Shown here: positions 3,969-61,377 of the stretch, piece after piece
Layout: every line of letters begins with the position of its first letter
Numbering within the stretch: position 1 is the first letter of the stretch
From: Romanomermis culicivorax
Taxonomy: Eukaryota > Nematoda > Enoplea > Mermithida > Mermithidae
NCBI GenBank assembly: GCA_963922205.1
Contig: CAWUHX010000066.1
Coordinates: 1,054,001-1,118,000 of the forward strand
Length of the DNA stretch: 64,000 nucleotides
Direction: 5' to 3'
The notes under the pieces: generated by a model
Database searches by the model: none
Told to the model about the DNA's origin: nothing
Seen by the model: the letters and a program-made list of their open reading frames with translations, nothing else
Translations under genes and position numbers: made by a program

Positions 3969-3981
3969 CCCCTCCCCCCTT
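3969..3981 (-). promoter_or_regulatory. Polypurine tract of element 1
   Basis: On the minus strand AAGGGGGGAGGGG abuts the 3' LTR directly. This is the expected RNase-H-resistant primer for plus-strand DNA synthesis and it fixes the element's orientation. Confidence 0.85.
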
Positions 3982-5835: not shown

Positions 5836-6462
5836 TCAGGCCAGGCATAGAATAAATGGCTTAAATCGGGAAATGGCGACAAGCTGCGGTCGGCCAGGCG
5901 TATCCAAGGCATCAATCGTAACCATATTGTTATCAATAGTACTGACATCCGTGATGATGAATGGGCCTATAAAATCTGGTTGAATTTTGTTACCTTTTTT
6001 ATTGTTGACCAAAAGGACGAGATCGTTGACGCTAATTTCTCTTTTGTGGGCTTTCAGGTCGTAGTATTTCTTGCTGGCATCGGCGGCCTTATCAAGGTTC
6101 AATTTGATCGATTCGTACATTTTGAGTTGCGCTTGCGTCAAGATGTGCTGGTAGGCATCGTAGTTGAGCGGAGTGTAAGACGGCGAGCACAATCGTAGTC
6201 GAATGTAATTTGGGGCTCGTAACCACGTAATAATTGGAACGGCGAGTGGCGTGTTGCTGTATGCGGTGTTGCATTGTAGGCAAAGACAGCGTATGGTAGG
6301 TAGCGCTCCCAATTGTTGGGGTCGTCGGCAGTATATTTCTTTAGTTGAGCAATAAGGGTTTGATTGAAGCGCTCGACCATTCCATTGCATTGCGGGTGGT
6401 AGGCGGTCGTTTTGACTTCTCGGAGTTCGCAAATTTCTTGCATCAATTTCGATGTGAAACAT
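5836..6462 (-). pseudogene. Integrase C-terminal part, element 1 (shifted frame)
   Basis: The last ~110 codons match the C-terminal integrase domain. They contain a tether segment (KMYESIKLNLDKAADASKKY) and a GPFIITDVS motif, equivalent to GPFIVTDIS at the end of the intact Pol at 19964-26146. This frame differs from the integrase core just upstream, so at least one frameshift near 6140-6200 separates them. In this family the domain binds DNA during integration; here it is part of a dead copy. Confidence 0.8.
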
Positions 6463-7640
6463 CCACCTTGATCAGAAAGGAGGACAAGTGGGCTACCGTG
6501 GGCGAGGACAACATTGTTCACAAAGCATTCGACAATGGTTGAGGCCTTTTGATCCGGAATGGGGTGCGCAGAAACCCATTTGGTGAAGTAGTCCTGAAAA
6601 ACAATAACATAGGGGCGTTTCTCACCTATGAGGGAAATATTGAGGATGTCTGTGGCAACAATTTCAAAAGGGTGTGTTGGTTGGATCGGTAATAGCGGCG
6701 GAGGCGGCAATGTGCGCGGCGTCGTCAATTGACAAATTTTGCAGGACTTGATCCACTCGCGGACGTTTTCTTCCATACGGGGCCACCAAAAATGAGCTTT
6801 GATGGCTGCTAGCGTACCGTTGGATCCTTGGTGGTTCAAAATTTTCGCGCCATGGAATTGGTGTAACATTTGATCGACCAAGGATGCGGGGATGACTAAT
6901 TGGCGGTTGTCTTTGATCTGGCAGTACAGGAGTCCATCTTCCATGAAGAAAATCGGTGGGCGCTTTGAAATGTTGTGATTTTGGAGAGAGGCAACGATCG
7001 CAGTGATGGCGGGATCGGCAGCCTGTGCTTGAAAAACTTCATTGTGGGAGGCGATTGTTATGGCTTCGGCCAGAGGCGGTGCATAGTCAGCGATCAATGG
7101 CATAGAATCGGGGAGTGTGGGTTGACTGATGGTCTTTTTGGTCATTGCTCGAGTGACGGCGTTGATGTCCGCGTCGACTTCCATGGGCGGCGAGGCCGCT
7201 GCTGGGAGTATATTGGGTACCATTAAGTCGGCGGCCGATATTGCACCAGCAGGGTGAAAATCTTTATGGAAAATTTTAGCGGTTAAGTTTTCGGTGTTCC
7301 AGATCGGCGTTTTATCGCGGTCATCTTTCCTGGACAAAAAATTGGTGCAAGCATTGCCTTTACCTTTAACGTATTCAACCTTGTAATCGTAGTCTTGAAG
7401 ATTGATAGCAAAACGCTGGAGGCGAGAATTTTGGTGCTTTTCCTCCTTGAGCCATTCGAGGGGCTTGTGATCGGTATGAACAATAACTTTTTGGCCATAC
7501 ACATAGTGGTGGTACATCCGGAAGCCGTAGACAATGGCGAGGCATTCGCGCTCAGTTGTGCTGTAGCGGGTTTCGGCATCGGTAAGTACGCGGCTGTTGT
7601 ACGCGATGACCCATTGATCGTTTCTGTTTTCCTGGTACAA
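6138..7640 (-). pseudogene. RNase H and integrase core, element 1
   Basis: This 500-codon frame begins inside the RNase H domain (IAYNSRVL, then HTDHKPLEW) and continues to the integrase zinc-binding HHCC region ([12 protein letters not shown] ... CKICQ). The DDE core follows, with [17 protein letters not shown] and NGMVERFNQ supplying the three acidic residues. Order and spacing are as in Ty3/gypsy Pol. The frame starts at a non-ATG codon because the upstream RT is in another frame, so this is an internal fragment of a broken polyprotein. Several conserved positions are changed, for example YHPQCNG. Confidence 0.88.
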
Positions 7641-7799
7641 TATTGCTCCAATGGCGGTCGTACTGGTGTCGGTTTGGATTACGAATTGAGCTGTTCCATC
7701 GTAGACCGGGTAGCGGAGGAAAGGCGATGACGTGAGGGCTGTTTTGATACTGTCAAACGCGGCGTGATGTTCTTCCGCGGCGATGTATTGGGCATCTTT

Positions 7800-8600
7800 T
7801 CATAGGAGTCCGTACAAGGGACTGGACAAGGTTGCCAAGTTTGGGATGAATCGCTTGCACCATTGGACTAGACCTAAAAAACTTTGCATACCTTTTTTGG
7901 TCTTCGGGAATTTGTGTTCAGGGATAGCTTTAACTTTATCCGGATCGGCGGCGATGGGGCGTTCAGGAGATGTCCCAAGAATTTGACTTGCGGCGGCAGG
8001 AATTTGCATTTGTCGGGCCGAAGTGTGAGGTTGGCTGCGCGGAGGGCACGAAAATGATTTGCAGATGTTCCAAATGTTCTTCCAACGAATTAGAGAAAAT
8101 GATGATATCGTCGATGCAAACGAGGCAAATCTTCCAAATGTACGGGTGGAGAATTCTTTCCATCAGGCGTTGGAATTCGGCGGGCGCGTTTTTCAAACTG
8201 AACGGCAAAACTTTGAATCAAAACAAACCTTCTTGGCAGATGAAAGTTGTTTTATCGCGGGAGTCGACATCGAGAGGTACCTGCCAGTACCCTGCTTTGA
8301 GATCCAACGTAGTGAAGAATTTTGCTTGTCCCATCGCGTCCAAATAGTCGTCAATGCGCGGGATCGGGAATTTGTTGCTGGGCGTGACGTCGTTTATTCC
8401 ACGGTAGTCGACAACGGGTCTCCATGAGCCATCTTTCTTTTTTACCAGGAATAGCGGTGCGGCCTAGGGTGAGCGGGATTGTTCTATGAAGTTGTTGTCA
8501 AGCATTTCTTGGATATGGCGGCGTACAATTGGTCTTTCCTCCATCGCGACGCGGTAATAATGACGGGATACTGGCCTCGCCGTGCCGGTGTCGATGCTGA
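7800..8600 (-). pseudogene. Reverse transcriptase region, element 1, multiply broken
   Basis: Separate short frames encode RT pieces in order: [18 protein letters not shown] and then CIDD in place of the usual YIDD catalytic box (7963-8208), followed by the thumb region FLGLVQWCKRFIPNLA (7800-8009). Frame changes and an in-frame stop near 8463 interrupt the coding. The change of the tyrosine next to the catalytic aspartates and the breaks make it non-functional. Confidence 0.82.
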
Positions 8601-8661
8601 CGGTTAATTTACTGGTTATAGTGGGTTTGTCGCTGGGTAGGCTGAAGACGTCTCGGTTTTG

Positions 8662-9096
8662 TCAAAGCATAATGAGGGCCTTTGCTTTTTGAGCGGTGGA
8701 GACGTAAGTTTTTTTGGTCATTTTGTTCAAGGCCAACTCCAGCTTTTGTTGCGCGGTGTGGCCAGGGAACGATTTATCGAGTGCGGCCGGCTCGTGGTCT
8801 GTTAAATCGCGGTCGGTGGCGGCGGTTGCTATCTGGCAATCGGCGTAGGATTCGGAATACTCTAGCGTGTGTTTTGCCATCGCGAGGAGCTGGTTCGTTC
8901 GGAGTTTGATGCTGTTTGACATGTTATTGATGAAGAGTAGCGGACAATGACCATTGGTAATATTTACGACTGCGGTTTCAACTGGAAGCTCTGCGGCTAC
9001 GTTGTTAGTGGCTAGCGGTTGAACGATCACGTCAGGAATTGTCACCGTTGTTGTGGGGAAAACGGTACTTTTGACCCATTGCTGACAATGCGGCAA
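8662..9096 (-). pseudogene. Protease-RT linker region, element 1
   Basis: This 144-codon frame lies between the protease remnant and RT. It is rich in short hydrophobic/polar stretches and contains NGHCPLLFINNMSNSIKLRTN, which aligns in position with the segment around [18 protein letters not shown] of the intact Pol at 19964-26146. It is a linker of unknown enzymatic role in a decayed copy. Confidence 0.65.
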
Positions 9097-9207
9097 AATT
9101 GAGATGGATACTTGGGCAACGAGGAAAATTGATTCGGCGAGCTCGGTAACCTCCAGCCGCCAGGGTGGTGGTTGGTGTGGATTAGGTTGAGCTGGGGGAA
9201 TTGGTTG

Positions 9208-9513
9208 TTAGGCCTCGATTTCTTCGGGTTGACTGAAAATATCGGATTTATCATCATAGAAACTTACTCGCTCGTCCTCAGGAATTTCCTCGAAGGCATT
9301 GTCATTGGCGGCGTTTAGGAACAATTCAGTTTGAGGGCAGACCGAGGTGATTACTTTGAGCGGCAGCTTTACGTCTTGTATTTCTATGTAATTATCTTTG
9401 AAATTCAAAATGGCGTGAATATCTGGGTGCGCAAGAAAATTGGTGTATCTGGGTGCGCGAGAAAAAAATCGTATGGAGCCAGCACTGTGTTGTAGTGGAT
9501 ATGTTGTTCCCAT
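9208..9513 (-). pseudogene. Aspartic protease C-terminal remnant, element 1
   Basis: The frame contains NFLAHPDIHAILNFKDNYIEI, which parallels [17 protein letters not shown] of the protease in the intact element at 18609-33265. No DTG/DSG catalytic triplet is visible upstream in any frame at 9514-9760, so the active-site half appears deleted or mutated beyond recognition. Confidence 0.7.
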
Positions 9514-9599
9514 GGTGCCGGGAATTGTTGATTTGGGTAGACGGCGTAGGTATTCTGAACAAAATCATTTGGGCGCTGTATAGAGTTACCTTCATAAAA

Positions 9600-9854
9600 T
9601 TAATTTCGTGCACCGCGGGCGTAGTTTGTGCCTCTTTGGGGCGGTGCTCCGCGGCGGGGTCTCCAGTCGCATTGGCCACGAATATTGTTCGAGTTGGTTC
9701 GAAAGTCAGTTTGCCGTGAAGGGGCGGGGTAGGTTGGGCGATTTGGTTCATGCGGGGTTAGTTGTTGAGCGTTTTGCGGCTTAAGCCAGACACAATCTTC
9801 GGTGTTGTGGGTGCGGGATTTGTGAGCATCGCACCAAAGACCAGTGGGTTGCAT
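9600..9854 (-). pseudogene. Nucleocapsid zinc-finger part of Gag, element 1
   Basis: WCDAHKSRTHNTEDC gives a C-x2-H-x4-H-x4-C finger, the same unusual form seen in the element at 18609-33265 ([15 protein letters not shown]). It is followed by an Arg/Gly-rich tail (RGQCDWRPRRGAPPQRG). The fragment is out of frame with the capsid part upstream. Confidence 0.78.
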
Positions 9855-10019
9855 CGTGCGCGTGCGGTCTCTGCTAGCGGATCGCTCGAAACAGGTTGCA
9901 TATGATTCTCGGTTTTGAGATTGACAGCGTGGACTCTGTTGTCTATTGGGGTGTAACGTTTCCTCTGGACGCTGGAGTGATTTTCATTCTTCATAGTCGC
10001 AATCGTATCTCTGAATCAA

Positions 10020-10556
10020 TTATTCTAAAAGCACCTCCGTGCGCAGTGGCTGTTGTGGGGGTTGTTCGATTGCTTGTGGTTGGAAAGAGACGAATTTAGT
10101 GGGCAGCGGTGCTGAATTTTGGGGCCTGCAGTCAGCTGAAGGGAAGCGTTTGCAGTAGCCATTTTGAGAGCGGTCCATGCTGCGGCGGCATTCAAAACGG
10201 TGGTCAAAAGGCTGCAGGGACTTGGGCGGTTGTACTTCCGGATCGGCTTGGTTCACGAGGATAGGTCGTTCCGCGGTGCCAATTTCGGCTTTGGTTGCGT
10301 TGAGGACACTTCGGGCTTTAGCTACGGCGTTGGTTAGTTGTTGGACGTTCGTGAAACTTTTGGCTTGTTCCCCAATTGTTAATTGATAGAAAACAGGCAT
10401 TTTTGTCAAAAAGGTGTCAATTACTTGTTTGTGCTGAAAGGTTTGGTCTTCATGCTGATACAATAATTGTACATAAGTCATTACCGGTGTGATTGACGCG
10501 AGCTCGCGTTTGAGAGTCATTTGATTGCAATCCGGGGCTAGTTGGAACATGAGCAA
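10020..10556 (-). pseudogene. Gag capsid C-terminal part, element 1
   Basis: The frame contains [19 protein letters not shown] and [12 protein letters not shown]. These correspond in order to the capsid stretch around [19 protein letters not shown] and [13 protein letters not shown] in the intact Gag-Pol at 19964-26146. The reading frame shifts at its upstream edge relative to 10538-11341. Confidence 0.75.
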
Positions 10557-11341
10557 ATTTTTGGCATAGTCATGTCTTGGATCATATCCCTCGGTGTATC
10601 GCGGGTGAGTTGGCGTAGTGCACTCATTTTTACGTGGTTGGAGGCATCGTAGCCAAACTCATTTTCCAGGCCGATGAAGAAGCATAATAGACCTTTGTTC
10701 GTCGTGGCGCCATCAATAATCAATGGGTGCATATTGTCGACGATTGTTTTGATGCGGCTATCTTCTTCGCAATGAGATGTACGTGGCATTTTGTACCGAG
10801 GTTGCGGGTGGTCATAATAATCGTCCAGCGGGTAATCCGAGAAGCCGAAATGGTTTGCCACGGGCGGTTGGCATCTTTGAGGCACGGAACGGGGTAATTC
10901 TTTGTCTCCGCGCATGGTGCGGGAAAATTCGTTATTATACAGGGTATCCATTGACGGCGCCTTAGGTTTGACTTGGTTTGGCAGTCCGCCAAAGACTTGA
11001 GCCCGTTCGGTTTTGCGGAGAGTTTCATTTGGGATATAGATATCTCGCGTTTCCTCACCGTGAAACCGTGAGGACACTGGCAGCGGTCTTGGTGTGGGCA
11101 GGTTGCGCGCATTAGTTGCAGCGGCGGTTGTTGAAATCAACTGTTGCATTTGCTCTGCGAGGGCGGCGAAACACGCATTTGTAGCTTTAGTTTGTTCTTG
11201 GATTTCACATTGGATGCGTAGTTGCTGGGCTTGAAATTGATCGGAAACGGCACCGATAATTTGATCAATCGTTTGGACTGTATGCCCACATTGTTGGTGA
11301 TGCGCACGGCGGTGGTGTTGAGCTGATCCAACGCGTGGCAT
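10538..11341 (-). pseudogene. Gag N-terminal and capsid part, element 1
   Basis: A 267-codon frame starts with a Gln/Ala-rich, probably coiled-coil region (QFQAQQLRIQCEIQEQTKA). It continues into capsid-like sequence ([22 protein letters not shown]), matching in position [21 protein letters not shown] of the intact relative. It is one piece of a frameshifted gag. Confidence 0.72.
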
Positions 11342-17911: not shown

Positions 17912-18608
17912 GGTCATGTACAAAAAAAACCCTGGCCATGATATAAGTTAAATTTTTCTGATCTTATAGCAAAGTGCATTATACTAAAGTTGGAAATAGC
18001 TGTGAAAATATGCAAAAGCACCTCCCTGGAATCTTAAAAACTGTTGGGCCCAAAATCTAGATAATTTGTACGGGTGCATTGGGTCGAGTTCTATCAGTAA
18101 ATTTATGCGGAAATCTGAATGAGGTTGCTCTACATGAGGCAATGGTCAACCAAACTTTGAGTTAAAGCTTCCCTTTGAACCGCACTCGTGATTATTTTTA
18201 TTTAAAAATGAAAATTTAAGCAATATTGTTCGTAACGAGGGCTGCAGAATCAACGAACGTGAAGCACGGGAACGTCAAATAGACGAAATTTTCTCCCCAC
18301 TTGAGTCCTGTCACTCTGGTTTTCCGAGCCTCATGTCATGCGGCTGATAAATTGACGTTTTCAAATTTTTACGGTAACATAAAAATTATATTAGTGAAAT
18401 TATGCATATTATTCTCACATTTTGATGTCGAACGAGTATCAGCAGCATAATTTGCAAAATCTAAAGGCAAAACTTTGATGCATCGCTCTCTACAATGCAT
18501 TGGGTGGTACCTCATATCCATACCTGAACAGTAGGTTTAACTAGATGCAACTCGGTACCAGATGAGGCGACTTTGATACCAGATGACTCAATTCTCGGCA
18601 CCAGATCA

Positions 18609-19223
18609 TGTTGGGCACCCTGTTGATGCCAATTCGTGTGGGGAAATCGACATGCAAATCGACGACAGGGACGACCAGCGGCGCAGACATTTGCATAGAA
18701 TGGAGCGCCAAAGAAAGACGGAAAAGTGAAAGTGAAATCATTCTTCGCTTAATATAGTTTTCTATTATATTTTTGGTATTTTTGCTGGCGTCCCCAAATA
18801 TAACTTTCCCAGCAACTTGTTTTGTTTATGAGTATTTCACAGTGGTGTACCCACATTCGTTTTACATATTTCGTCGGACTTATTGCTTAATATATTCGTT
18901 TATTGGTTTAGATTATTCGCATCGACGAAGGCGGAGGGCCAGGGGCCCAGGCGCCGGCTTACATCAAGTAAGTTTTGGGAAACCCCTTGCGGGTTATACC
19001 CAAGTAAGTTTATCCCTGAGGGGATTCCTTGTCTCATCTAGGAGACTGCGGAGGTCTTTGGTAAGGCCCCCGTATTTAGAACAAAGTTTATCTTTGTTGT
19101 TGTAGGTCTGGGGATAAACGGACTGTTGCACAGATCACCGAGGCTTAGCCAAGGTATCAGTTCTAACAGGTCAGTTCAGACCCAATCTTTTCTTACGCCT
19201 CTTAAGGAAAGACCTGCACAACA
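18609..19223 (+). repeat. 5' LTR of element 2
   Basis: Direct repeat partner of 32651-33265 with about four mismatches. It should carry the element promoter. An AT-rich TATATT-like stretch lies around 18750-18775, but no start site can be fixed. Confidence 0.95.
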
Positions 19224-19319: not shown

Positions 19320-19967
19320 ATGCCTAACGAAAGGATACCGAGAGGTAATACTTTACGTAGATCACCACCCAGAGTGGCGAGTGCTGGGAATCTAGTCAAT
19401 TTGGGAGACGGAGATCAGCAACGGCATGCTGCTCCGGACCCAGTAATCCCAGATCAAACTCCCGCGAGGGTTCAACCATTGCAACAAAATGCAATGCATT
19501 TTACGCCTCAAGATGCAGGCGTACCAATTGACCGACCGCCAGCGATTGCCATCGATCCGCAGGAGGCAGGCCCGGCGAATCCGAACCCAGACGCCGATGG
19601 ACCGCCGCAGCAAAATTTCAAAAGGTCACCGCCGCCAAAGGTCGAATTAGCAGGACCAAAAAGGGACGTCGTTACGCCCGAAATTCGACCAAATTTCGAA
19701 GAAAGGGACCCCGAAATCGATCAAAGATTAGAGAGGATTCCCCAGGAACAAGAGCGATTCCAACCGCAGGAAAGAGCTCCCGAGATGTCCAATCAGGAGT
19801 TGGCGACGCAGCTACGCGAGTTGAAAGGGACTGTCGAGGCCTTGTTCGACATAATCGCAAATGCCGCCACAGAGGACAACAAAAGGGAAGCCGACAGGAG
19901 CCGGATAGACAGGTTAGACCATGTAATAGGGGTGCAGAAAGAGATAACCGTCTCCCTGCTGAAATGA
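19320..19967 (+). CDS. Pro-rich leader protein ORF1 of element 2
   Basis: A 215-residue frame starts at the first ATG after the primer site. Residues 1-120 are rich in Pro, Arg and Asp and look disordered. Residues 125-215 are charged and helical, with a likely coiled coil ([20 protein letters not shown]). No catalytic domain is seen. The stop TGA overlaps the ATG of the Gag-Pol frame in the four bases ATGA (19964-19967), an arrangement suited to termination-reinitiation. The product is probably an N-terminal Gag-like or matrix-like protein. A counterpart may exist at 11554-12000 in the decayed element 1. Confidence 0.8.
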
Positions 19968-26571: not shown

Positions 26572-26796
26572 ATGGGAAAGGGCGCGCGGAACTGCCAACA
26601 AGCTCCGACGCGCGAGTGGTCGCACACAGAGCGCCACGTTGAATATGGCAGGGCCCAGCACCGCCAAGACAACCGTTTTTTCTTCATTGACGGTAAGTTT
26701 CGAACTTATTTTTATCAAATATTCTTGGAAACCGCAGGTAATGCCCAGAAGTCACTGGAAGACCAGCTCGGCGCCCCAAAGGGCAGACGAGGTTAG
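26572..26796 (+). CDS. Candidate 5' exon(s) for the exonuclease ORF3
   Basis: A short frame starts ATG at 26572. It contains a strong donor (GACG|GTAAGT, exon end 26692), an acceptor (CCGCAG, exon start 26738) and a second donor (CGAG|GTTAGA, exon end 26791). The acceptor TTTAG ending at 27371 restores the ORF3 frame with either donor, because the 45-base first intron and the 54-base middle exon are both multiples of three. The frame's stop falls directly after the second donor, as expected if it is meant to be spliced. The model predicts an ORF3 protein of about 949 residues. It rests on splice-site inspection only. Confidence 0.5.
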   Translation: MGKGARNCQQAPTREWSHTERHVEYGRAQHRQDNRFFFIDGKFRTYFYQIFLETAGNAQKSLEDQLGAPKGRRG

Positions 26797-27466
26797 AACT
26801 TAGAGGGAACGAAAAATGGGAGTACTGAGAAGCGGAAGCTCGAAGCCAAGCAGGGAATTTCCAACTTGGAAATATACCTGATACCACCAAGAGCTATACG
26901 ATTCAAGGGAAACCTAGAACCTTGGGTTCAGCCCGTTTTAAAGTTTTATCATTCAAAAATTTATCAAAAATTATTTATTTTCAAATCAAATCATATCACT
27001 TTTTCGATATCAAATTCATCAAAAATTATCAATTTCGAGCGCTATAAAAATTGTAAATACAGCGCCATAAATGGAGCGTAGTTGGTCGCTCAAGCAGCTG
27101 GTCAGAGATTGGTGTCCGATCAAGTGGTGGACAATCGGATCAGGTCTACCCTCCCCAACATATAGAGGTAGCAAGGGTAAGATTTGGTAAGGTGTTAGTT
27201 GCCTACCAGCTCAATGTTTGTATATCAGTGGCTCACCTAACAACCTGCACTAAACTTAATTTTCTGCGAAACTTAACCCGCTTGGTGTTGTGGTGCTGGT
27301 GTAGTATAGACCCGAAAATGCGCTGAAAAAAGGGGAATAAAACACTAAAATTAATAGTACTTTATGTTTAGATTATAACGTCAAACGGGCCGTACGAATC
27401 CACGAACTGGATCAGTGGTTCAAAGCCACATTTGGGTACTGGCCGGCCAATCCCAAGGAACCTCGA

Positions 27467-30046
27467 ATGGTAGACATCGGGAAGGTCAGCCAGGTACTCC
27501 ATTTTATCCGAGAAGTATCAATCTTCAGAGGACAACCAGTTTGTGGCTTCGACGTTGAAAAAGTCAACCAGGATAAGGTCGCCGCCTTGTTCAAAACAAG
27601 GGAGGTCGACAATCCGATGGGAAAGCAGTTTGCCCGATATATCAGCTTCGCGCTAACGAATGGTCAAACTTACGTTATTGATACAACGTCGATGATGATC
27701 AAAGAGTGGACCAGCCTCCACGACTTCTTGAACTCCGACATGCTCTTCGCCGGATATGCCGTACTGGAAGATCTGGTGAGTATCTATAACGTTTGTGGCG
27801 CAGGGCGAGATAATAAGGACAGGGACAAAACTGTCCCCTTACGGGAATTTCTAAGAAAAACCAAAGGTCGACTCTTTGACTTAGACCGTTTCGCCCTCAC
27901 CATGGTAGGAGTAAACCTGGAGAAAAAATGCTTTCAGACAGGTATATGTCCCGAAACCTTTCGGTTAAAGGGACTGTTCACGGAATTTTATTTGATAGAC
28001 GTGGGCCCCTACCAATATGACTTTTCGTTAAAAGCGAACCGTGATCGGTTTGCCAAAAGGGGTATATTGCCGGAAGAGCTCAGATACGCCGCTCTAGACG
28101 CATACTACTCCTTATTGGTCATGTTTGCCGCCATTCACTATGGCATGGCCGATCAACTGCTTATGCAAATGCAGATTTTCGACCATGACAAGGTGGATCC
28201 CAAACAGATCAACACCATTGCCCTACACTTTTATCAACAATATCTAATGATTCCGGGCAATGTGAATCGAGAAATGGGGCTAGGTACCCCAGTTATGGAA
28301 ACCGATCAGGTTCAACCAAATATGGTCTATCACATGATGAAGTGTGAGATGTATAACCGTTGGGCGGTACAGATGCAGGGAAATAACACAGGTTATTATA
28401 CCGCGCCCACGGAGTGTAATCCAGTTCGTCCGCAGGGAGTTCAGCTGCCAAGTGGTTTCTACCCACTACTTCCAAGAGATAACAAACCAATGAAGGACGA
28501 CGGATACACCACAGATAGCGATCCCGACGAAATCCAGGACGTCCAGATACCAGACTGGGTTAATATTTCAAAAGATATCCTGGAAAATCTCAAGTCAGGT
28601 GGAACCTACTGGGATTTAGACGGGAAAATTTCTTTAACGTTGTACGAAAACGCCAAGCTATACTGGCAACAAGCCGGGAAGCCCGATACCATTCCACAAG
28701 AGGTGTTTTCCTCTAATAACCACTACCCAGTGGGTATCGAGGGCCATAGACAGGCCTATAAGACCAATTTTTACACGCCAAACTTGGCAAAAATTTCAGG
28801 TATGCTGGATGAGCGAAACTTCCCAGAGTTAGAGGTCATCTGCAAATTCATGCCATTGGCCTATCATTTGGCGTGGCCTCATTCTAGAGCGGAGTGCGAC
28901 TATGAAACTAGCGCTCTGCTAAACTATAACTTTCTAAATAGTTATACTAAAGAAGGCCAGGAAATGATAAAGAAAATGTCCTGGAAGTCAGGCGACCGCC
29001 TGGCTTACTATTTAGAATTAGCAGCGACGCTACCGCCGTCGGAACCCCGCTTTCCATCTAAAAAAGGGGTATACGCATGGCAGAATCGGTTCGGTTTTGT
29101 CCCGCTACGATTTCGAGAAGCCGAGGAGATCCTACAAATTGGCGACGACAAATCGTTATTGAAGGACGGAGCCTACAAGGTAAATCCTTACTTCTATGTA
29201 ACTTTTTACTACGTAGGCTTCGAGACTTTAACGCCGGGACTGCGGTATCCCATGACGGAAGACGCATCGCCAACCGACTACCCAATTACCTACGCACCGA
29301 GAAATCCGCTCGAGCTCAGACCGGAGTTTGTCAGTAAAAGCTTCCGGGAGAGAACAATCGCTTCGGAAATGCCCGGGTATACATTAACATATACCCCAGC
29401 CGCTGAGTTAATTTCTAAGGTACCGGTAAATCGTCCCTCAACTTCCCAAACGGCGCAAGCCGGAGGGACGGGACAGGTTAAAGCGCAGCCGCAGGCGTTA
29501 GCGCCAGTGGTCAAAGCTACACCAGCTTTGGACACTGCTGCTACGCAGGCAGCTGCAGTAGTTGTCGTGGTGCCGCCGCCAATCCAACCAGCGGTGGCAC
29601 AGCCGACTCAAGTACCTCAAGTACAACAACCGGCCGAGCCTGAGCCAGAGGTTGTCACCATCATGCAGTCTGTACCTCCGGCACCAGCTGTGTTACCGGC
29701 TAAAGTAAAACAGCTATTGCCAAAGATACGAAATTCAGACTCTGAGTCCAGTTCAGAGGAGGATGTAGAAGAAGAAGAAGAAGGTGAAATCCTCGAATCT
29801 GAGGGCCAGACATCAGAGAATAAGGATGCGATGGAGGCCAAAACTCAGAAACAGGCTCTTGAGGAGGAAAAAATCCAGACTCAAATTGACGAAGCAGTCA
29901 CCAAAATGTCAGGGATCGATGTCAGACTGGAAAAGATGCAGGAAGCATCCCAGGAGATACCTGTGAAGGCCAAGGTCCTAAGGATCATGACCGTCAAGCG
30001 AAGCAAGAGGCCCTACAGGCCAAAATTCAGGAACAGAGAAGGCTGA
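27467..30046 (+). CDS. ORF3 of element 2: DEDDy 3'-5' exonuclease (RNase D/WRN-like) fused to long unknown region
   Basis: This 859-residue frame has an N-terminal DEDDy exonuclease domain. Motif I is GFDVEK (D29, E31). Motif II is GYAVLEDL (D102), preceded by [18 protein letters not shown], which resembles the RNase D strand-helix. Motif III is [14 protein letters not shown], the diagnostic Y-x3-D (Y207, D211). [14 protein letters not shown] stretch sits where the family has its LG-x2-L-x-K element. Known members trim RNA or DNA from the 3' end; nematode MUT-7 is one. Residues ~230-640 match nothing I recognise. About 660-760 is Pro/Ala/Gln-rich, followed by an acidic tract and a coiled coil. 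The frame is open upstream of this ATG to the TTTAG acceptor at 27371, so the true N-terminus probably comes from the upstream exon. Capture from a host gene is an inference. Confidence 0.8.
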
Positions 30047-30147: not shown

Positions 30148-31899
30148 ATGCGGAGGGGAAGAATTGCCGAGGAAGGTATTCCTGGAATTTATTCCCCAGA
30201 CAAAGTTCAGCAGATGTTAGCTGAAGGTATGTCGGAAAAATTTATCCGACACCTAGCCAAGGAAAAGGTAAGGCGTAGAAAGAGGATAGGTAAGGCCAAG
30301 CGACGCAGACTTGCAGCTCAGGGACAGCAGAAACAAGGAGCAGCCGCCACCGGATCCGAAAACGACGCCTACGATACGGCCGAAGAAACGACGACCCCAC
30401 AATACTCGATGAGCCAAAAGTCGAGATCGGAGACTTCAAAGAGTCAGACGAGAACGGAGACTTCAAAAAGTCAGACGCGAACGGAGACCTCCATAGGCCA
30501 GACAAAATCGGATAGGACAACAGGGTCCACTGCGACAACATCGTACACTCAGACGCGAACGGTATCGAAAACCGGCGGAGAGGTTAGTACTTCTTCTGGC
30601 AAAAGTAAATCCGTGCCCTCCAGCTATACCGCAAGAAGTAGCAAACCTGCGGGAAGCGTATTGGTGAAGCCCGATCTTGAATCGGAGGAGAAATTGATCA
30701 AGAAGGTCAAGCTGAATGTGGTAGCTAGTAGACCCGAAAGGGAACCACAGCAGTTTGTCACTCCTGGTCAATTAGCCGAAACTCTGATTGATTATTGGGA
30801 GTGGCAACGGGAACAAAGGCGCCTAGTTGGGCCGATCTCATTTGAAAATCCAGAGGTCGCCAATTATTTCGCCTTTGATCGGCAAGAACGGCCGATAATT
30901 TACAGAATGGTCAATGATGCCATGGCCGAGATTCACGAAAATTACCGCCAGCAATTCGAAAGGCAGGGCCGATTTATGTTTGACGGAGAGCGCATTCCTG
31001 AGGAGATCTGGGAATGGATAATTTTAATTCTCATCCCCAGATGGCTTCAGGACTACGATGCCTCAGACGTCTTTACGGCCATTAGGTATGTGACCCTAAT
31101 GATTTTTCTTCAGTTGGACTTCGCTCCGATCACGCCAACGGCAATTGGTAGGTGGTATGCCCAGGCGTGTTCGTTTGCGAACAGACAACTAGTCGTTGAG
31201 GCCCAGGGAAACCGCGTAGACGATGTCTACATTGCAGCCTTTAATCAGTATATTTTTATGGGCTCGCAAAGGTTAAACCAGATGGGTGTTAAGAGGAAGG
31301 CACCAGGCGATGACAGGTCGCAAGCTGATAAATTTCAGCGAACGGCTGCCAAGAGCCCGAGTAAGTTCAAGGTGCCTAGACTCCCTCCGGCTAAGAAACA
31401 ACCACCGATGATACAACAATCATCGGCTACGACCAGCCAGAGGTCATATAGTGAAGCTGCTAGCACTTCTTACAAAAGTCCGCTTTCTCGGTCAAAATCA
31501 ATTTCATCTAAATCTCTTAATTCAACTTACCGGACACAAAAACTGCAGCGCAGCAGCTCCACTAGCAGTGGTCAAAGGCAGCAGGGGAGAGACGATATGT
31601 TCTCAAACCCGGCCCCGTACAGGGCTAGACCGGGGTATGACCAAGGTCAACCCAGGGGAGGCTTCAGAGGGCGCCCTCAGCGACCTTACAGAGGCCGAGG
31701 AACCTGGCAACACCAAGGTCAAGACCCGGATGCTCAATTCCATAATCCGAATTTTATGCCGCTAGGTAGACGCGGCGGGAGCCAACAAGGCCAAAATCGA
31801 GGCCAGGATGGAGGTCATACCAGAGGCCAACCAGGTCAGAGGGGGTACTATCAAGGTAGACCTCGAGGAGGTTACCGAGGCGGCGGGCAGCAGCAGTAA
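30148..31899 (+). CDS. ORF4 of element 2: basic, repeat-containing protein with RG-rich tail
   Basis: From its first ATG this is 583 residues. The frame is open well upstream and overlaps the end of ORF3 in the -1 register, where it encodes a coiled coil ([15 protein letters not shown]). A basic stretch ([18 protein letters not shown]) follows at about 39-55. Then comes a Ser/Thr-rich segment with SQTRTETSK repeats, a folded-looking middle (about 205-390) with several Trp, and an RG/RGG-rich C-terminus (about 490-583) typical of RNA binding. No transmembrane segment or cysteine pattern suggests Env. It may be a nucleocapsid-like or RNA-chaperone product, or the C-terminal half of ORF3 reached by frameshift. 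The function is unknown. Confidence 0.75.
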
Positions 31900-32650: not shown

Positions 32651-33265
32651 TGTTGGGCACCCTGTTGATGCCAATTCGTGTGGGGAAATCGACATGCAAA
32701 TCGACGACAGGGACGACCAGCGGCGCAGACATTTGCATAGAATGGAGCGCCAAAGAAAGACGGAAAAGTGAAAGTGAAATCATTCTTCGCTTAATATCAT
32801 TTTCTATTATATTTTTGGTATTTTTGCTGGCGTCCCCAAATATAACTTTCCCAGCAACTTGTTTTGTTTATGAGTATTTCACTGTGGTGTACCCACATTC
32901 GTTTTACATATTTCGTCGGACTTATTGCTTAATATATTCGTTTATTGGTTTAGATTATTCGCATTGACGAAGGCGGAGGGCCAGGGGCCCAGGCGCCGGC
33001 TTACATCAAGTAAGTTTTGGGAAACCCCTTGCGGGTTATACCCAAGTAAGTTTATCCCTGAGGGGATTCCTTGTCTCATCTAGGAGACTGCGGAGGTCTT
33101 TGGTAAGGCCCCCGTATTTAGAACAAAGTTTATCTTTGTTGTTGTAGGTCTGGGGATAAACGGACTGTTGCACAGATCACCGAGGCTTAGCCAAGGTATC
33201 AGTTCTAACAGGTCAGTTCAGACCCAATCTTTTCTTACGCCTCTTAAGGAAAGACCTGCACAACA
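32651..33265 (+). repeat. 3' LTR of element 2
   Basis: Partner of 18609-19223. The flanking ATCA duplication at 33266-33269 marks the insertion edge. Confidence 0.95.
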
Positions 33266-33269
33266 ATCA

Positions 33270-45129: not shown

Positions 45130-48100
45130 CTACATATCATAAGTAGAAACATCTATGATATGGGCCGGAGGGTTGAATGAGAGTGCTGCATCAGCAGGTA
45201 GCATGGGAGTACGACCATACATGAGCTCGAAGGGTGAATACCCTGTGGACTCATTCATGCCAATGTTGACAGCGAACACAGAGTACGGCAGGTGTTCATC
45301 CCAATCAGTATGACCTTGGTGGACATACATACGTAACCGTGTGGCTAGCGTTTGGTTAGCTCTTTCCACTTCTCCGTTTGTCATGGGATGATAAGCGGTG
45401 GAGTGGATTTTCTTAGTTGAACAAATGGCAGTGATTTCAGTCATCAGTTTGGACGTGAAATCAGTACCACGATCAGACTGAAGAATCTGCGGTGCCCCAT
45501 GTCTGCAGACAATTTGAGTAACAAAAAGTCGAGCTATAGTTTGCGCAGTAATGTCCGGAGTAGCGAAGGCTTCAACCCATTTGGTAAAGTAGTCTATGAA
45601 AACTACAATGAATCGGTTTCTGTTTTCACTAGTGGTCATTGGTCCCATACAGTCAACACCGACTCGATGAAACGGACCCGTAATGGAAATCGGTTTCAGA
45701 GTTGCACGGGTCTTTTGTCTCGCAGGTTTATTCCGTTGGCACAGATCACACTGCTGACAAAAGGACTTGACGTCCGCACTGAGGGAAGGCCAGTGGTACC
45801 GGCGGGCTATAAGCCTCGCGGTACGTTTCGCACCAAAGTGTCCAGCAAGAATGTCGTTATGATGAGCCTCAATAATGGTAGTAACCATTAAACGAGGGAC
45901 AACAATCTTGTTGGACTCGCCTGTCCACTTCTGAAGGATGTTATCCAACAGGTGGTAGCCATTAACATCATTCTGATCACCGTAGGGTTTTAGTGACCTA
46001 AGAATGGAGGCTAATTCCGGATCCTCAAATTGAGTTGCGAGAAGGTCATGGTGCTGCGCATCCTGTGATATCTCTGCATAAGACTCAGACCTGGCCAGGT
46101 GCTGGGCACCATTGGTGGTCCTTTGGGATGAGTTCGCCAGGCGCTGCGCACCATCGGAGATCATCATAACTTCTCCCTTGGGTCTGTATAGGGGAATATC
46201 GTCAATACTCTCCCCGGCAAGGGAATTAGGATCAGGAAGGCGTGATAATGCGTCGGCATTACCATTAGACCGACCTTTTCGCGGCGGAATAGTCAGTTTG
46301 AATTCAGCTAACGCGAGGCCCCACCGAGCTATCCGGGACGAAGGGTTCGGTTTTTCCAACACAGCCTTAACGGCAGTGTGGTCGGTCTGAACGACCACCT
46401 CATGTTGAAAGAGGTATGGCCGAAAGTGCTTGACGAAATGGACAACAGCGAGAGTTTCCAACTCCGTAATAGTGTAGTTTTTCTCAGCTGCTGTTAACCC
46501 TCTACTGGCGTACGCAACAGGATGGTCGTATCCATTCTCGTCCAACTGGCTTAGAACTGCTCCTATCCCCGAAATGCTTGCATCAGTTTGAAGTATAAAG
46601 GATTTCGTAAAGTCCGGATGGCGCAGGACAGGAGGGTTCAACAACAGCCTTCGGAGTTCGTCGAACGCCTCCTGCTGAGGTTTTGACCACTGGAAGGTAA
46701 CTTCCTTCCGTAAGAGCTTGGTCAGCAGCTCGCTGAGCCGAGGGCAACCAGGGATGAAACGCCTATAATAAGACACTAGACCAAGAAAAGACTTGATGTC
46801 TTTAGTGTTTTGTGGAATGGGTAGATCCTGGACGGCAGCCAATTTGACTTTGTCTGGCTCGAGCCCCTTCTGTGAAATGCGGTACCCGAGATATTCTACC
46901 TCAGAGTGCGAAAACTTGCACTTGCTCAGTCTGAGCTTCATTCCACCCTGACGGAGACGCGTAAACACATCCGTCAGGCGCTCAAGCATCTGGGTGTGAG
47001 AGTTCCCGAACACCAAGATGTCGTCGAGATAGGTCAGTGCAGTGCGCCACTGCAGTCCTGTAAGAAGCAGGTCCATGAGGCGTTGAAACGTCCCAGGGGC
47101 ATTGCAGAGACCAAAAGGCAGATAGTTGAACTCGTAAAGTCCAATAGGTGTATTAAACGCCGTTTTTTCTTTGTCTGCCTCGGCAATAGGTATGGACCAG
47201 TAGGCGTTAGCCTGGTCAAGGGTAGTAAAGTATTTCATACCCTTGAGTGTGTCCAGGATATCATCAATCCGTGGGAGAGGATAGACATCCTTTTTCGTGA
47301 CCTCGTTGAGACCACGAAAGTCAACACACATCCGGTGTGACCCATTTTTCTTGCGAACCAAGACGGTGTTAGTAGCCCAGGGAGAAGTACTAGGCCGAAT
47401 AATACCTTTCTCTTGGAGCGCTTTGACCTCTTGTATGATGAGATCCTTTTCCTTGGGCGCGGTGCAGTAAGGGAAACGGCGGACTGGGCGAGCGTCACCC
47501 GTGCTGATCTCATGGTGCACGAGGTCAGTGGAACCTGTGTCCTTTTCATCAACCGCGTAGAGGTCAGTAAATGCGACCAGCAGATCGAGCAACGCTGTTT
47601 TATCCTGTGAGGAGATATCTGAAGATATCACAGCATTGGCTTCAACCCACTTACGGTCAAGAATGGTATCAGACTTGACTGCCGATCCCTGTAAGGAATC
47701 AGTATGCATCTGCACATGACCGATGGTCGTGTGTGGGTAGAGAACCACAGCGTGTGTACTTGGGTTAACTACCTGTAGGGGTATGCGACCATCGGTCACA
47801 GTACTCACAGTACCAGCAAAGTATACATTACGTTGCTGACCCAAAGGAGGCTTAGGGAAGAAAGCTACTTCGGGCACAGTTGCATATATTGAAGGTACGG
47901 GTGCAGTGAATTGTGTTAGCGAGCGAGGCTCAAGGACAATCAACTCCTGCGAGGGTAGTGCCCCACGAGCAGAAGGTGGATTGTGGATGAGACCTTCACA
48001 CGGGACTCGAAGTTCCTTGAACTGGAGAAAGGATTTCTCCCAGCTCAAGCTGACGCAATTGAAACGTCCGAGGAAGTTCGTCCCCAAGACTAGTTCAGCC

Positions 48101-48963
48101 GAACAATTCTCTTGAACCTGGACTTGAATCCGTTCAGAGACATCAGCCACTGTCACCGTGACATAGGCAGAGCCTAGCAGTAGAATCGGGGACCCATTGG
48201 CTGCTATGGGGCGAGCCCTAGTCTCTGTGAGTACCAAGTCGGGTAACTGGACCGCCAACTTGTGATCCAGGAGCGAGAAAACTGCCCCTGTATCAATTAG
48301 AGCTTTGGCTTCTACCCAATTGTTCAGTAGAACCTTGATATGAGGGGTCCTCATTTCAGTGGGGTAGAAAGCTGATACTACATGACCTGGGTCAGGTACA
48401 GAGTCGTCAAAGCTCGACTCTGGCGCGTTGGTTCGCCTCGGTATGGGTAAGCCAGTGCGTCTGAGTAAACCTACCAGAGCATAACCAACTGACGTGTCCG
48501 GATTGGCCGTAGAAGTTGGGTGGACCTGGACAGTAAGTACATGATCTGACCTCTCTCCTGAGCTCTGAATAGCTCCTAGTGATTCAACCTCAACATTAGA
48601 GAGTGGTGGCACCTCTAGTACAGGGGATGCTGGTGCATCAGAGTCACTAGGCTCGCGAAAACGGCCTTTCTCCAGTGTAATTGGAGAATTTCCAGGCGGG
48701 GGTCGAGGACAGTTTGACCCTGACCTGGCCATGGAATGACCACTAGCCCGTCTAGAAGAGGTCCTACTTCCTCTGGTTGACCCACGGGATGAGGCAATGG
48801 AGGAAGCTCGCGAGGGTGGCCGAGAAAGGGACGAAGTCCTTGATCTTGATCGAGACCCGGACCTGTGGGAGGCCCTTGATAGTGAACGTGTGTTCTCCCA
48901 CCAGGGTTCGATCTGATCAATCTCAGCTGCTGTCAACAGAAGTGGCAGTTCTACTGCATTCAA
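45130..48963 (-). CDS. Pol of element 3: second protease, RT, RNase H, integrase core
   Basis: This 1277-residue frame follows the Env-protease frame in register, separated by one TGA, and has no ATG at its start, so it depends on upstream initiation. The N-terminal ~110 residues are Ser/Arg-rich. An aspartic protease carries DTGA (D224), followed by [12 protein letters not shown] has VDFRGLNEV and YLDD (645-648). RNase H has LQTDASISG and QTDHTAV. Integrase has the HHCC region ([11 protein letters not shown] ... CDLCQ) and the DDE residues in [14 protein letters not shown] and NGEVERANQ. The frame ends at a TAG just before the tether helix. All catalytic boxes look intact. Confidence 0.92.
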
Positions 48964-51201
48964 TCAACAGACATGTTGTTGGTAGTCAAACGTAATATTC
49001 TGGAATTGTTCTAAAAAGTCCAATCCAAGAATCAGATCGACCGGTGCCCAGAAAGGAGACGTAGTCTTACACACATGGAGATGTATATCCACTCGTGTGT
49101 GTGGCTGACGGGTTCCAGGCAACATTATCTCATACGGTCCTGAAAGGAGAGTATGGACGGCTTTACCATTGATACTCATCAATGGATTAAAGTCGTGATG
49201 TTGCTGGAAGGCCATCGCTGCCTTCGGACTTTCTTTGATCAGCGCTTTGTGAAGGCGCTGACTAATGATAGTCCGTGGACAACCAGTATCAAGGAAAGCT
49301 GGAGTTTCCTTGTGGTCAACCAGTACAACAAAACACGGGGTGATCCTGTCTAACTGGGTTGGCACATCGTTTTGTACGTAATGAAAACCTACCCAACGCT
49401 GAACTTTCCGGAGGAGGTTCAACGGAGAGTATTGGCTAACAAACCGAACCTGCCTTTTCCGCAGGTGGTAGCTGAGGTAATAGGAGATCCCAACGTAGAT
49501 GAGAAATCCTGTACCGGCCAGTACTGCCAGGGCAATAAGTGTGTTAAAGATTAGCTGCACTGGTCCGCTCAAAAGAGACTGTAAGCCCTGCATGAGGTTG
49601 TGCTGCTGACCAGTAATCACATGGTTTGCTGCCAGACCAACACCTTCCAGGGAGGCTCTGATGTCAGTCCCTACCCCTGCAACCGCCTGATACAGGGTAT
49701 CTGGTTGTAGGGATAAACCAGCGGTATAATTTACCAACCGGTTCAGGACTGCTTCAATTTGCTCAGTCTTGTAAACGTACTGTTTAAAGAAAGCAAAACT
49801 TGAAGGGGTCATGGCCAACTGATCATAAAAGAGCGCAGGAGCCTCAAAGTGAGTGACGTTGAAGCGCTGCTTCCAGAACAGCTCCAGTGGAATATGGCTC
49901 ACATGGACCGTGCCAGATTCAGTAAACCAGCCAGAGCGATTTCGGAAAATCCCTGTAAAGTGGTGGTCACACAGCACCTTTGGACTGAATTTAGTGAGAT
50001 CTGGGCCACCGGGGGTGGCAAAATAAATGGTACCGCCAACCTGTACGGGTAGATACTTGTAACAGGTGTCTCCCACTCGGTACGAATGATAGACATAAGT
50101 GGCGTTGACCTTTTGACACGGCCATATCGTCAGTGCTTCACCCGTAAATTCTGCCGTCAGGTCATTCCTCTGAAGGAATGCCCGGGCTCCTAGTGTAGGG
50201 TCAAAACGAAGCAACTGCCAAGTCAGATCAAGGTAGCGTTGAGCGTGAGAACACAACTCTAGCCACATGAATCGAAAATTGTTAATTTCTGACTCTTTGA
50301 TCTGCTGAGCCAAGTAATTCAGTTTGGCATTGACAGGGTCAGGGACGGAGTCCTTTGCCAATCCGAATAACCTCTGGGTCAGATTAAATCTTCCGTGGAT
50401 GCGTAGAAGAAGACCCTGATCCGTTCGCACTGTATTCATCCGAAGGTCAGGACACAGTCGAAACACGCGAGAGTTTCCCGGGATCTTCAGGGCAACTTGC
50501 AAATCATCGATGATGATGTGGTTCCCTGATACAGACGCAGTGTAATTACCTTGTGGCCGATAATGGCACTGTGCTGTAAAGTTTGTGGCAGGCCAAACAA
50601 TTACCCCGTCTAGAGTAGTGCATTGACCTGCAGTGGGACTGCATCCACCTACATCTCCTAAGGTACTTAGAGCTGTAGTGCCATCCCACGAAGCAACCTG
50701 TCCCTCCTCGATGAAAAGGTTAGTCACTGTCTTGCAGACGTCATTGCAGCACCATGAGTACATCACCTCCAGTGTTTGGTTAGTGCTATAAAAGCCAGGA
50801 CGTATTTCCACGAGCTTTTGTAAACCAAACACCTTTGTGCGATGTGCTAGAGTACACGCCGCAGGCGCGAGGTGCTGAGTAGTAATGACGTCCGCAGTAA
50901 TGCCCCTAGATCCGAAAAAACCAGTGTTTGTGCATACCTTACGATTCCGCAAGGTACATTTCCATGCTTTAGTCGTGATTGGATCAGAAATAGGTACATA
51001 TACTGTAACGTTCATGCATCGTGGACTCCACGAAGATTTTGGTGGTTTGCATTCAACTTTTTGAGGTAACTCAAGTGGATGACCGCTTCTTGAAAGACCA
51101 CAAAATTGGTATTGAGTAGCATGTGTTGCAGAGCTCAATCCTAAGAACAGTAGTGTCACGAAGGCCCAATTTATTACAAACAAGATATTTACAAACGGTG
51201 T
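48964..51201 (-). CDS. Env-like glycoprotein fused to an aspartic protease, element 3
   Basis: The coding exon probably starts after an acceptor (TTTGCAG, exon from 51201). The open frame extends further to 51465 but has no ATG before the signal peptide, so a spliced leader exon must supply the start. A hydrophobic signal (NILFVINWAFVTLLFLGLSS) precedes a ~540-residue ectodomain with many paired cysteines and about nine N-x-S/T sites. A transmembrane helix follows (NTLIALAVLAGTGFLIYVG), then a basic tail. The tail continues into a protease-like domain with LDTGC and, later, LILGLDFLEQF. Known Env proteins mediate cell entry; none I know carries a protease on its cytoplasmic side. The ectodomain family is not assigned; a chuvirus-like glycoprotein is one weak guess. 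It ends at TGA, with pol open in the same frame behind it. Confidence 0.82.
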   Translation of the reverse strand, partial: TPFVNILFVINWAFVTLLFLGLSSATHATQYQFCGLSRSGHPLELPQKVECKPPKSSWSPRCMNVTVYVPISDPITTKAWKCTLRNRKVCTNTGFFGSRGITADVITTQHLAPAACTLAHRTKVFGLQKLVEIRPGFYSTNQTLEVMYSWCCNDVCKTVTNLFIEEGQVASWDGTTALSTLGDVGGCSPTAGQCTTLDGVIVWPATNFTAQCHYRPQGNYTASVSGNHIIIDDLQVALKIPGNSRVFRLCPDLRMNTVRTDQGLLLRIHGRFNLTQRLFGLAKDSVPDPVNAKLNYLAQQIKESEINNFRFMWLELCSHAQRYLDLTWQLLRFDPTLGARAFLQRNDLTAEFTGEALTIWPCQKVNATYVYHSYRVGDTCYKYLPVQVGGTIYFATPGGPDLTKFSPKVLCDHHFTGIFRNRSGWFTESGTVHVSHIPLELFWKQRFNVTHFEAPALFYDQLAMTPSSFAFFKQYVYKTEQIEAVLNRLVNYTAGLSLQPDTLYQAVAGVGTDIRASLEGVGLAANHVITGQQHNLMQGLQSLLSGPVQLIFNTLIALAVLAGTGFLIYVGISYYLSYHLRKRQVRFVSQYSPLNLLRKVQRWVGFHYVQNDVPTQLDRITPCFVVLVDHKETPAFLDTGCPRTIISQRLHKALIKESPKAAMAFQQHHDFNPLMSINGKAVHTLLSGPYEIMLPGTRQPHTRVDIHLHVCKTTSPFWAPVDLILGLDFLEQFQNITFDYQQHVC

Positions 51202-51247
51202 CTGCAAATTTACACCAAAATTTACATTTTTCACCCGTCGGGCGGCT

Positions 51248-51843
51248 TCATTCTTCGACGTCGTCGTTGTCGGACGACGCGGGATCTTCTCCGGGGAAGT
51301 CGATGACCAAGCCTCCTCCAGGGTGGACTTCTCGAAGAACGCCAATCTTCGGGGACCGCGGGACGGTAGCCGTCGGAAATGGCGACGCCTCGGTGATGTT
51401 GACCGCGTTGTGAATGGCGGGCAACAGTTCTCCAAAGGCGTTGGCGATCGGTTGCTGTGGCGCAATCGCCGCCAGGGTTTGGGCTCCCGTCATTGTTGTC
51501 GTCGGTGACGTTGCAACAACTGCTGTGGGCCGCACGTTGCGACTGGCCTTGTCCACAGCGCGGCGGACGGCGTCCACTGCGGGTGATGACGGTTCACCGT
51601 CCAACAGGATCTTGTCCACCGGGGTGGCGCGAATAGTTCCGTCGGTGATAAACTCGAGCGCCCGTTGAGCGACGTCGGGTCCCAAAATCCGCAACACCGC
51701 CGGTGCCGATAGCATGACGTCGGCGGCCGTAAGCGCCTCAACCTCGAATGGCTCGTTGAGTAGCGCCCAGGGGAGGTGCGGATACTTTTTGGCCAAATCG
51801 GTTGACCAAACAGCCCGCATCGCATCGGTGACGGATGAGGAAT
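51248..51843 (-). CDS. Accessory exon downstream of gag, element 3
   Basis: The exon follows a clear intron (donor ATAG|GTAAAC at 51929, acceptor TTGCTTACAG ending at 51844; 86 bp) and continues the gag frame in phase. It encodes about 198 residues: an Ala/Leu-rich helical part ([20 protein letters not shown]), then a Thr/Ala/Pro-rich stretch, ending in an acidic DNDDVEE. No known domain is seen. It overlaps the unspliced upstream extension of the env frame in a different register, so alternative splicing would choose between this product and Env. Confidence 0.6.
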
Positions 51844-51929
51844 CTGTAAGCAAGAAATCATTAAAGCCGGAGACTTGTAAAGATATCTAATTTTCGAACT
51901 TGAAACTTCAGAAAAAGAAGGCAGTTTAC

Positions 51930-52491
51930 CTATCAGATTCATCGATTCCAGTTGACTGACGACCTCCAACGCGGAGTCCGTGGGAATTCCGGGCGGCGGT
52001 CCCTGGCTGATAACACGTGCCGATGGCGCCGTTGTACCTTCCGTCGGTCGATACGACGCGATTACGCTGACGTCGCCAGTCGTTTTCGGTGTCGCTGACG
52101 GGTTTACGTTGACCGGCGTCGCATATTTCGGTGGTGGCGGCGGAAAAGTCGACAACGGGGTCGCCGAAACCACTGCCGTAGCTGAAAAACCAATACTGAT
52201 TACACAGACAGGATACCACAGTTGTGAGCGATCCGCCAGGTGTTCAGCCAAAACTCCATCATCCAGATCAAATAAGTCTGGGTGAAGAAGGCTGTCGGTA
52301 ACCCCTACAGCATTATTTTGCCGTGGAGGTGACCGATATTGGTTCCCTGTCCCGTGGGGAGTTGGGTTAGCATACCTCCGAAAATTTCCACTTGCCCCCT
52401 GAGGAAAATAACCAGAATTACCAAAATTAGTCTCACCAGGCAGTGTCGAATTTCGATTGGGGCAAGCCGTTGCCCGGTGCACTCGTAGTTT
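51930..52491 (-). CDS. Gag C-terminal extension after in-frame TGA, element 3
   Basis: The frame is in register with gag and follows its TGA stop. Its first residues (HRATAC) contain the His and Cys expected to complete a zinc knuckle begun by CPHC just before the stop. The rest is Asn/Pro/Thr-rich, with a FPPPPP run. It ends at the donor at 51930 and splices to 51843. Without splicing the frame runs on to 51490. Confidence 0.65.
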
Positions 52492-61352: not shown

Positions 61353-61377
61353 CAAGACCTTAAATACGCCGTAACGC

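Follow-up and report, generated by a model that had tools for sequence, protein, structure and literature searches.

Among retrotransposons bounded by long terminal repeats (LTRs), the closest described system is that of the bdelloid rotifer elements Juno and Vesta, whose third open reading frame (ORF3) was reported in 2017 to encode a DEDDy exonuclease (Rodriguez, Kenefick and Arkhipova, PMC5408684; this and the other articles cited by PMC number are drawn on for their available portions). The bdelloid ORF3s have spliced messages and were acquired independently by Juno and Vesta, and the roles proposed for them, 3'-end processing and silencing, are the same as those considered below (PMC5408684). 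Within the available text, their benefit to the elements was left open, since the number of copies was small and such variation in ORF3 as was tested (env-like, GDSL-like) looked mostly neutral (PMC5408684). As far as the accessible portions of the literature on LTR elements with a DEDDy ORF extend, this is the only case found, together with reviews citing it (PMC6431247, PMC5718144), the exonuclease in PMC11728184 being a reagent. Here, we describe a second case, in a 64,000-nucleotide stretch (the window) of contig CAWUHX010000066.1 from Romanomermis culicivorax, a mosquito-parasitic nematode (mermithid, class Enoplea). The window holds a complete LTR element of 14.66 kb, one member of a Ty3/gypsy-type family that is large and has amplified recently (family A), and its ORF3 likely encodes, from a spliced message, part of a giant protein with a functional DEDDy exonuclease domain. 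A first reading of this DNA, made from the letters alone and called hereafter the original prediction, had proposed the exonuclease and knew of no Ty3/gypsy family carrying one; given the bdelloid report, the kind is not unprecedented.

ORF3 comprises 859 residues (27467-30046), downstream of gag-pol and between the LTRs. The DEDDy motifs D-x-E, D and Y-x3-D lie in this order within residues 52-256 (counted from 27374), in its N-terminal ~200 residues: GFDVEK (codons D27551 and E27557), GYAVLEDL (D27770) and RYAALDAYY (Y28085 and D28097), just as the original prediction had quoted them. That they stand within a young element holds as well, since the two LTRs are identical at 613 of 617 positions (BLAST of the two flanks). 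Each of the eight family A copies read retains the five catalytic residues. PF01612 is the sole Pfam family matching the trimmed window domain at E≤10, in the correct place; its E of 0.087 over 24,736 models corresponds to a chance of ~4e-6 for a family named beforehand, a figure that is not independent because the earlier reader had viewed the same motifs. The membership of family A in the DEDDy exonucleases therefore stands on a chain of relatives and not on its own score.

The first links of this chain, families C and D, come from the same genome (assembly searched: 359,112,060 bases, 595 contigs). Family C, examined at five loci (L033/34, L035/36, L037/38, L041 and L043), is a Ty3/gypsy element (at L033, RVT_1 E 1.2e-35 and integrase 1e-13). 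Two of its three long loci have LTR pairs, of 602 bp (99.7% identical) and 599 bp (98.7%), with the 4-bp target duplications CTGT and GACG, and no LTR pair was found within the fetched stretches at the third. The ORF3s of families A and C are 38% identical over 708 residues (BLASTP, E 2e-145), the homology extends through ORF4 (E 4e-45), and family C keeps all five catalytic residues at a domain identity of only ~46%; a primer-site-like stretch after the 5' LTR is identical in the two families. Family D (L045, L046, L047 and L049, with partly broken frames) is more distant, its L045 copy being 25% identical to the window domain (BLASTP, E 3e-13). This copy passes the Pfam cut-off (PF01612, E 1.5e-7, 31.8 bits) and, as the only family D row covering motif I in the A/C/D alignment, keeps all five residues. 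Seven of the eight members of that alignment match PF01612 at E≤1, the best at 1.5e-7.

The next link is family B, which emerged from a PF01612 profile search of the genome reporting 119 places, 95 of them above the cut-off (hand count). Among the best 20 of the 119, the 13 on the plus strand belong to family B and the other seven lie on the minus strand; L044, L048 and L050 are also family B. Its exonuclease ORF (~608 residues) scores above the cut-off against PF01612 (E 1.4e-10 and 41.7 bits for L016, 1.7e-13 and 51.2 bits for L009), L010 matches the PDB chains of a MUT-7 homolog (E 9e-5) and of WRN (E 0.002), and all five residues are kept in the aligned rows. Three family B loci lie between LTR pairs (99.8, 99.4 and 96.9% identical) with the 4-bp target duplications GGTG, TAAG and TAAT. 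The ORF upstream of the exonuclease (1,155 and 1,154 residues in the two copies scanned) has CCHC, partial RNase H and H2C2 integrase zinc-finger matches and, in these two copies, no reverse transcriptase (RT) match, so that family B is apparently non-autonomous, though young, as its LTRs of up to 99.8% identity indicate. Family E (L042, G000 C429) has a divergent exonuclease frame, 33% identical to that of family B and just below the cut-off (E 1.8e-4, 21.8 bits), and PF01612 places on C180 and C54 span the same model range. Profile-profile comparison aligns A/C/D with B/E over 188 columns running through all motifs (94.2%, E 1.1e-7). Of the 16 PDB sequences that a mixed A+B+C profile, in which B rows are more numerous, matches at E≤10, 13 have DEDD-exonuclease names (three WRN, two MUT-7 homolog, two Rrp6, one EXD2, four NrnC and one diDNase ancestor), all of which we take to be of the DEDD kind; the other three are an uncharacterised sequence and two unrelated ones (eL28, E 0.0065; lactadherin, 0.6). 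A DEDDy ORF3 hence occurs in several LTR families, LTR pairs having been found for A (in the window), B and C.

Several observations weigh against this assignment or against an intact function, and most concern the window domain taken alone. Its PF01612 score of 13.1 bits is under the 23.6-bit cut-off, a 291-residue version returns no match at E≤1, and the window locus is absent from the 119 PF01612 places in its own genome. Single-sequence searches with ORF3 gave no Pfam, NCBIfam or useful PDB match; they came up empty because they are too insensitive, and it is the relatives in the genome that resolved the identity of the domain. The A/C/D profile alone has just two PDB matches, the better one an unrelated ribosomal protein (E 0.077) and the other MUT-7 (E 1.1). 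As for the residues themselves, His replaces the motif III Tyr in family D L049, and A-type fragments from gene models have lost the Asp of motif I in 5 of 14 assessable rows and that of motif III in 4 of 7 (counted by hand, rows cut at the motif being excluded); such database fragments probably often derive from decayed copies. AlphaFold models of the domain, built on alignments of 23 and 22 sequences that are mostly fragmentary gene models, have predicted local distance difference test (pLDDT) values of 45 and 50, and a Foldseek search with the second model gave no match at E≤0.001; we take neither result as evidence in either direction. In the Pfam search suggested with the original prediction, PF01612 was the only family matched, in the right place, and fell short in score for the window domain, whereas relatives in families D and B pass; likewise, the DEDDy assignment is carried by families C, D and B and not by the window domain alone.

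Purifying selection on the exonuclease part of ORF3 is clear. Across eight family A copies (the window and L002-L008), the ratio of nonsynonymous to synonymous substitution rates (dN/dS) averages 0.030 for the domain and 0.036 for the remainder of the frame. L002-L008 were chosen as the top protein matches, a choice that lowers dN and is a further point on the opposite side; dS between the window and these copies amounts to 0.064-0.089, and the bias is therefore too small to explain dN/dS values of 0.03-0.06. In family B, dN/dS is 0.074 at a mean dS of 0.88 for ten copies, all plus-strand and drawn from the best 20 places (the plus-strand L011, L012 and L013 being left out), and it is 0.222 at four of the five family C loci. 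At the genome scale, 722 sites encode YAALDAYY, with a wide range of synonymous codons, and 25 encode YAALEAYY, with no site for the reversed-pattern control of either; this count covered the Asp and Glu forms of motif III. CGFxVEK, where x is D, N, H or Y, occurs at 453 sites (control, 1), and the 100 sites listed of these have D in 95 cases, N in three, and H and Y in one each (hand count). The protein encoded by ORF3 hardly differs from copy to copy, so that the element probably depends on it. We consider it quite probable that the domain is a genuine, functional DEDDy derivative required by the element.

In most other scored copies, ORF3 is part of a longer frame. A search with ORF3 as query (4,365 candidates), in which element copies without ORF3 would not appear, gave 53 scored places for family A, 49 of which have an ORF3 frame of at least 1,510 residues, that is, ORF3 and ORF4 joined; one of the 49 carries an internal stop. 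In family C, all 34 scored places (4,932 candidates) are full length or one residue short. Protein-search counts such as these are lower bounds, and the family C search, too, would miss copies lacking the ORF. The original prediction would have been refuted by absence of the ORF from all other copies; the ORF stands at many other places, and a host exonuclease gene inserted just once is thereby refuted. Most scored family A copies have a single frame of ~1,519 residues, with which the window copy agrees up to residue 837, where its own frame is broken; intact copies exist. We considered and rejected programmed -1 frameshifting from ORF3 into ORF4, as the overlap has no slippery heptamer and most other scored copies are one continuous frame. 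Database relatives of ORF3 were labelled R. culicivorax in 2 of 2, 25 of 26 and 36 of 37 cases in successive searches, between which matches recur; the remaining one is P0008 in both larger sets, its label being incomplete.

Regarding its start, ORF3 probably begins upstream, in exons spliced to 27372, where the main exon follows directly after TTTATGTTTAG. Family C has an equivalent exon with the donor GACG/GTAAG at three loci (L033, L036 and L037) and an acceptor of matching phase at two, and equivalent junctions also occur in gene-model proteins from other copies (P0001, P0005, P0010 and P0020). The peptide of an optional exon is present in P0001 and P0010 and skipped in P0020. Because donor, acceptor and phase are common to families A and C and junctions recur in the gene models, the most likely source of the ORF3 protein is a spliced message of env-like kind, separate from gag-pol.

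The other parts of the element are those of a Ty3/gypsy-type retrotransposon (Table 1). Its LTRs begin with TG and end with CA, and direct reading of the flanks shows a 4-bp target duplication on both sides. ORF2 has the domain order protease, RT, RNase H, integrase (Pfam; positions 675, 1056, 1307 and 1654), in agreement with the Ty3/gypsy-type element of the original prediction, which was also right about the nematode. ORF1 has no Pfam match. The whole 859-residue ORF3 matches no Pfam family at E≤1, hence neither Mut7-C nor another MUT-7 domain. The capture of a host exonuclease, as put forward in the original prediction, is a conjecture as far as a MUT-7-type gene is concerned.

Table 1. 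Features of the family A element in the window (window positions), with the loci of family B
Feature	Position	Strand	Basis or remark
Target-site duplication, 5' copy, ATCA	18605..18608	+	Flank reading; 3' copy 33266-33269
5' LTR, 615 bp, TG...CA	18609..19223	+	BLAST of flanks
ORF1, 215 residues, N-terminal gag-like part by position, overlaps ORF2 start	19320..19967	+	
ORF2, gag-pol, 2,060 residues	19964..26146	+	Pfam: RVT_1 E 4.7e-39, rve 6e-15
Putative first coding exon of ORF3, 40 residues, donor GACG/GTAAG	26572..26692	+	Frame and splice sites
Putative optional 54-nt exon	26738..26791	+	Phase-consistent
Main exon of ORF3; frame runs on through ORF4 in most scored copies	27372..30046	+	
DEDDy 3'-5' exonuclease domain	27527..28141	+	Motifs, Pfam, alignments with relatives
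Conserved middle region without known domain	28200..29428	+	A-C alignment spans region; no Pfam match
ORF4; in other copies, the C-terminal end of the joined ORF3 polyprotein, with a region conserved in family C	30148..31899	+	
3' LTR, 615 bp	32651..33265	+	BLAST and flank reading
Family B loci	L029:5026 to L030:2552 (G000 C69), L031/L032, L039/L040		Elements roughly 7.5 kb

If we assume that this architecture is expressed as outlined, the third gene would yield, from a spliced messenger RNA separate from that of gag-pol, a protein of ~1.5 kilo-residues in which a Pro/acidic linker joins the N-terminal DEDDy domain and the conserved middle region to another conserved region and an RG-rich tail. 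The last 150 residues of ORF4 contain ten RG in family A and nine in family C, and the highest 19-residue hydropathy is 1.41 and 1.5 in the family A ORF3 and ORF4 and 1.79 in family C, indicating no strong membrane segment. A nucleic-acid role therefore fits better than an envelope role. The tail, which is probably RNA-binding, would hold this auxiliary enzyme on the element's own RNA, and the enzyme would trim or clear the 3' ends of the element RNA or complementary DNA (cDNA) in the particle. We infer both the catalytic activity and its service to the element through nucleic acid during replication; trimming of its own ends is the role that we favour, though only tentatively.

The closest alternative, a rather unlikely one in our view, is counter-defence, whereby the exonuclease would degrade small interfering RNAs or double-stranded RNA and so shield the element from RNA silencing. 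The abundance of the family and the youth of the window copy would suit it. In Caenorhabditis elegans, MUT-7 works in the 22G-type RNA and piRNA pathways. Counter-defence also finds an analogy in the arenavirus exonuclease domain, which suppresses innate signalling (PMC7968707), and clade I nematodes retain an RRF-3-type RNA-dependent RNA polymerase (PMC4323106). In the available account of R. culicivorax small-RNA libraries, however, neither 22G-type 5'-triphosphate RNAs nor piRNAs were detected (PMC4323106), so that these MUT-7 pathways are not seen there, which weakens a MUT-7-like silencing role and, with it, the interference with silencing raised in the original prediction. Less probable still is a pseudo-exonuclease, in which the fold would have been retained not for catalysis but to bind RNA and assemble particles, as in Maelstrom or EXD1, precedents cited in PMC5408684. 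The weak profile scores of the window domain, the catalytic Asp replacements in part of the fragments and the large fusion with an RG-rich tail are what such a protein would show, but the eight family A copies read, the aligned rows of families B and C and L045 of family D all retain the five catalytic residues, and the motif III Asp outnumbers Glu as counted above. By analogy with the coronavirus proofreading exonuclease, the enzyme might instead edit or polish the 3' end of the cDNA, growing or finished, or of the genomic RNA in the particle, giving fewer errors to elements of 13-15 kb, a conjecture that we hold to be improbable. An envelope substitute serving cell-to-cell passage, with the exonuclease incidental to it, would agree with the env-like position downstream of pol and the probable spliced message, but it lacks a strong membrane segment and has the RG-rich tail where an anchor would be expected, making it very improbable. 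A chance origin, through a single host-gene insertion or a spurious motif match, is hardly credible, since, whatever the sub-threshold Pfam score of the window copy may suggest, the ORF recurs at many scored places of families A and C, lies between LTR pairs in families B and C and is under purifying selection.

Elsewhere in the window, a second Ty3/gypsy-type element on the minus strand (45130-53589) has an 833-residue viral fusion glycoprotein ORF (PF24664 Monjiviricetes_fusion, E 1.5e-15; BDV_G, E 1.6e-4). The env genes of LTR elements are usually downstream of pol, whereas this ORF has a gag-like ORF (52492-53589, by eye) on one side and the pol ORF (45130-48963) on the other. Frames on the plus strand at 60366-62610 resemble the gag part of the family A ORF2 (by eye). 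Retroelement remains occupy the minus strand at 1333-11341, with gypsy-like gag-pol pieces (5836-11341) and a Penelope-like frame (1333-2343), both by eye, and the segment 37242-40000 contains G-rich repeats that have diverged, are about 60-70 bp long and include copies in inverted orientation.

Compared with known systems, the exonuclease-bearing element shares with nidoviruses and arenaviruses a virus-type genome with its own 3'-5' exonuclease; the ExoN of these viruses belongs to the DEDDh subgroup (PMC7968707) and serves an unrelated replication. MUT-7 homologs and WRN exonucleases (PF01612) have the motifs in common with ORF3, and family B matches both by sequence, but they are cellular genes, none of whose other domains is found in ORF3 (Pfam, E≤1). 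The bdelloid Terminons (Athena Penelope-like elements) likewise carry a retroelement-borne DEDDy exonuclease and differ in being telomeric elements with a Penelope-like RT and not LTR elements (PMC6431247, PMC5408684). Juno and Vesta remain the nearest counterparts, as LTR elements in which pol is followed by a DEDDy ORF3, a trait of more than one lineage, and with a spliced ORF3 message, which is reported in their case (PMC5408684) and probable in ours. Unlike them, the window element has no match for a dUTPase domain between protease and RT (Pfam, E≤1). While a DEDDy ORF3 in LTR elements is as such already known from bdelloid rotifers, the present case adds a nematode as host, a spread across several LTR families that reaches high copy number, a giant fused ORF3 of ~1.5 kilo-residues with its RG-rich tail, a shared intron and purifying selection, all of them new. 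With 722 exact motif III sites, several LTR families and selection acting on the gene, the reason why an element needs its own 3'-5' exonuclease becomes testable, and the association of DEDDy exonucleases with LTR elements now extends to a second animal phylum, via repeated capture or exchange among elements.
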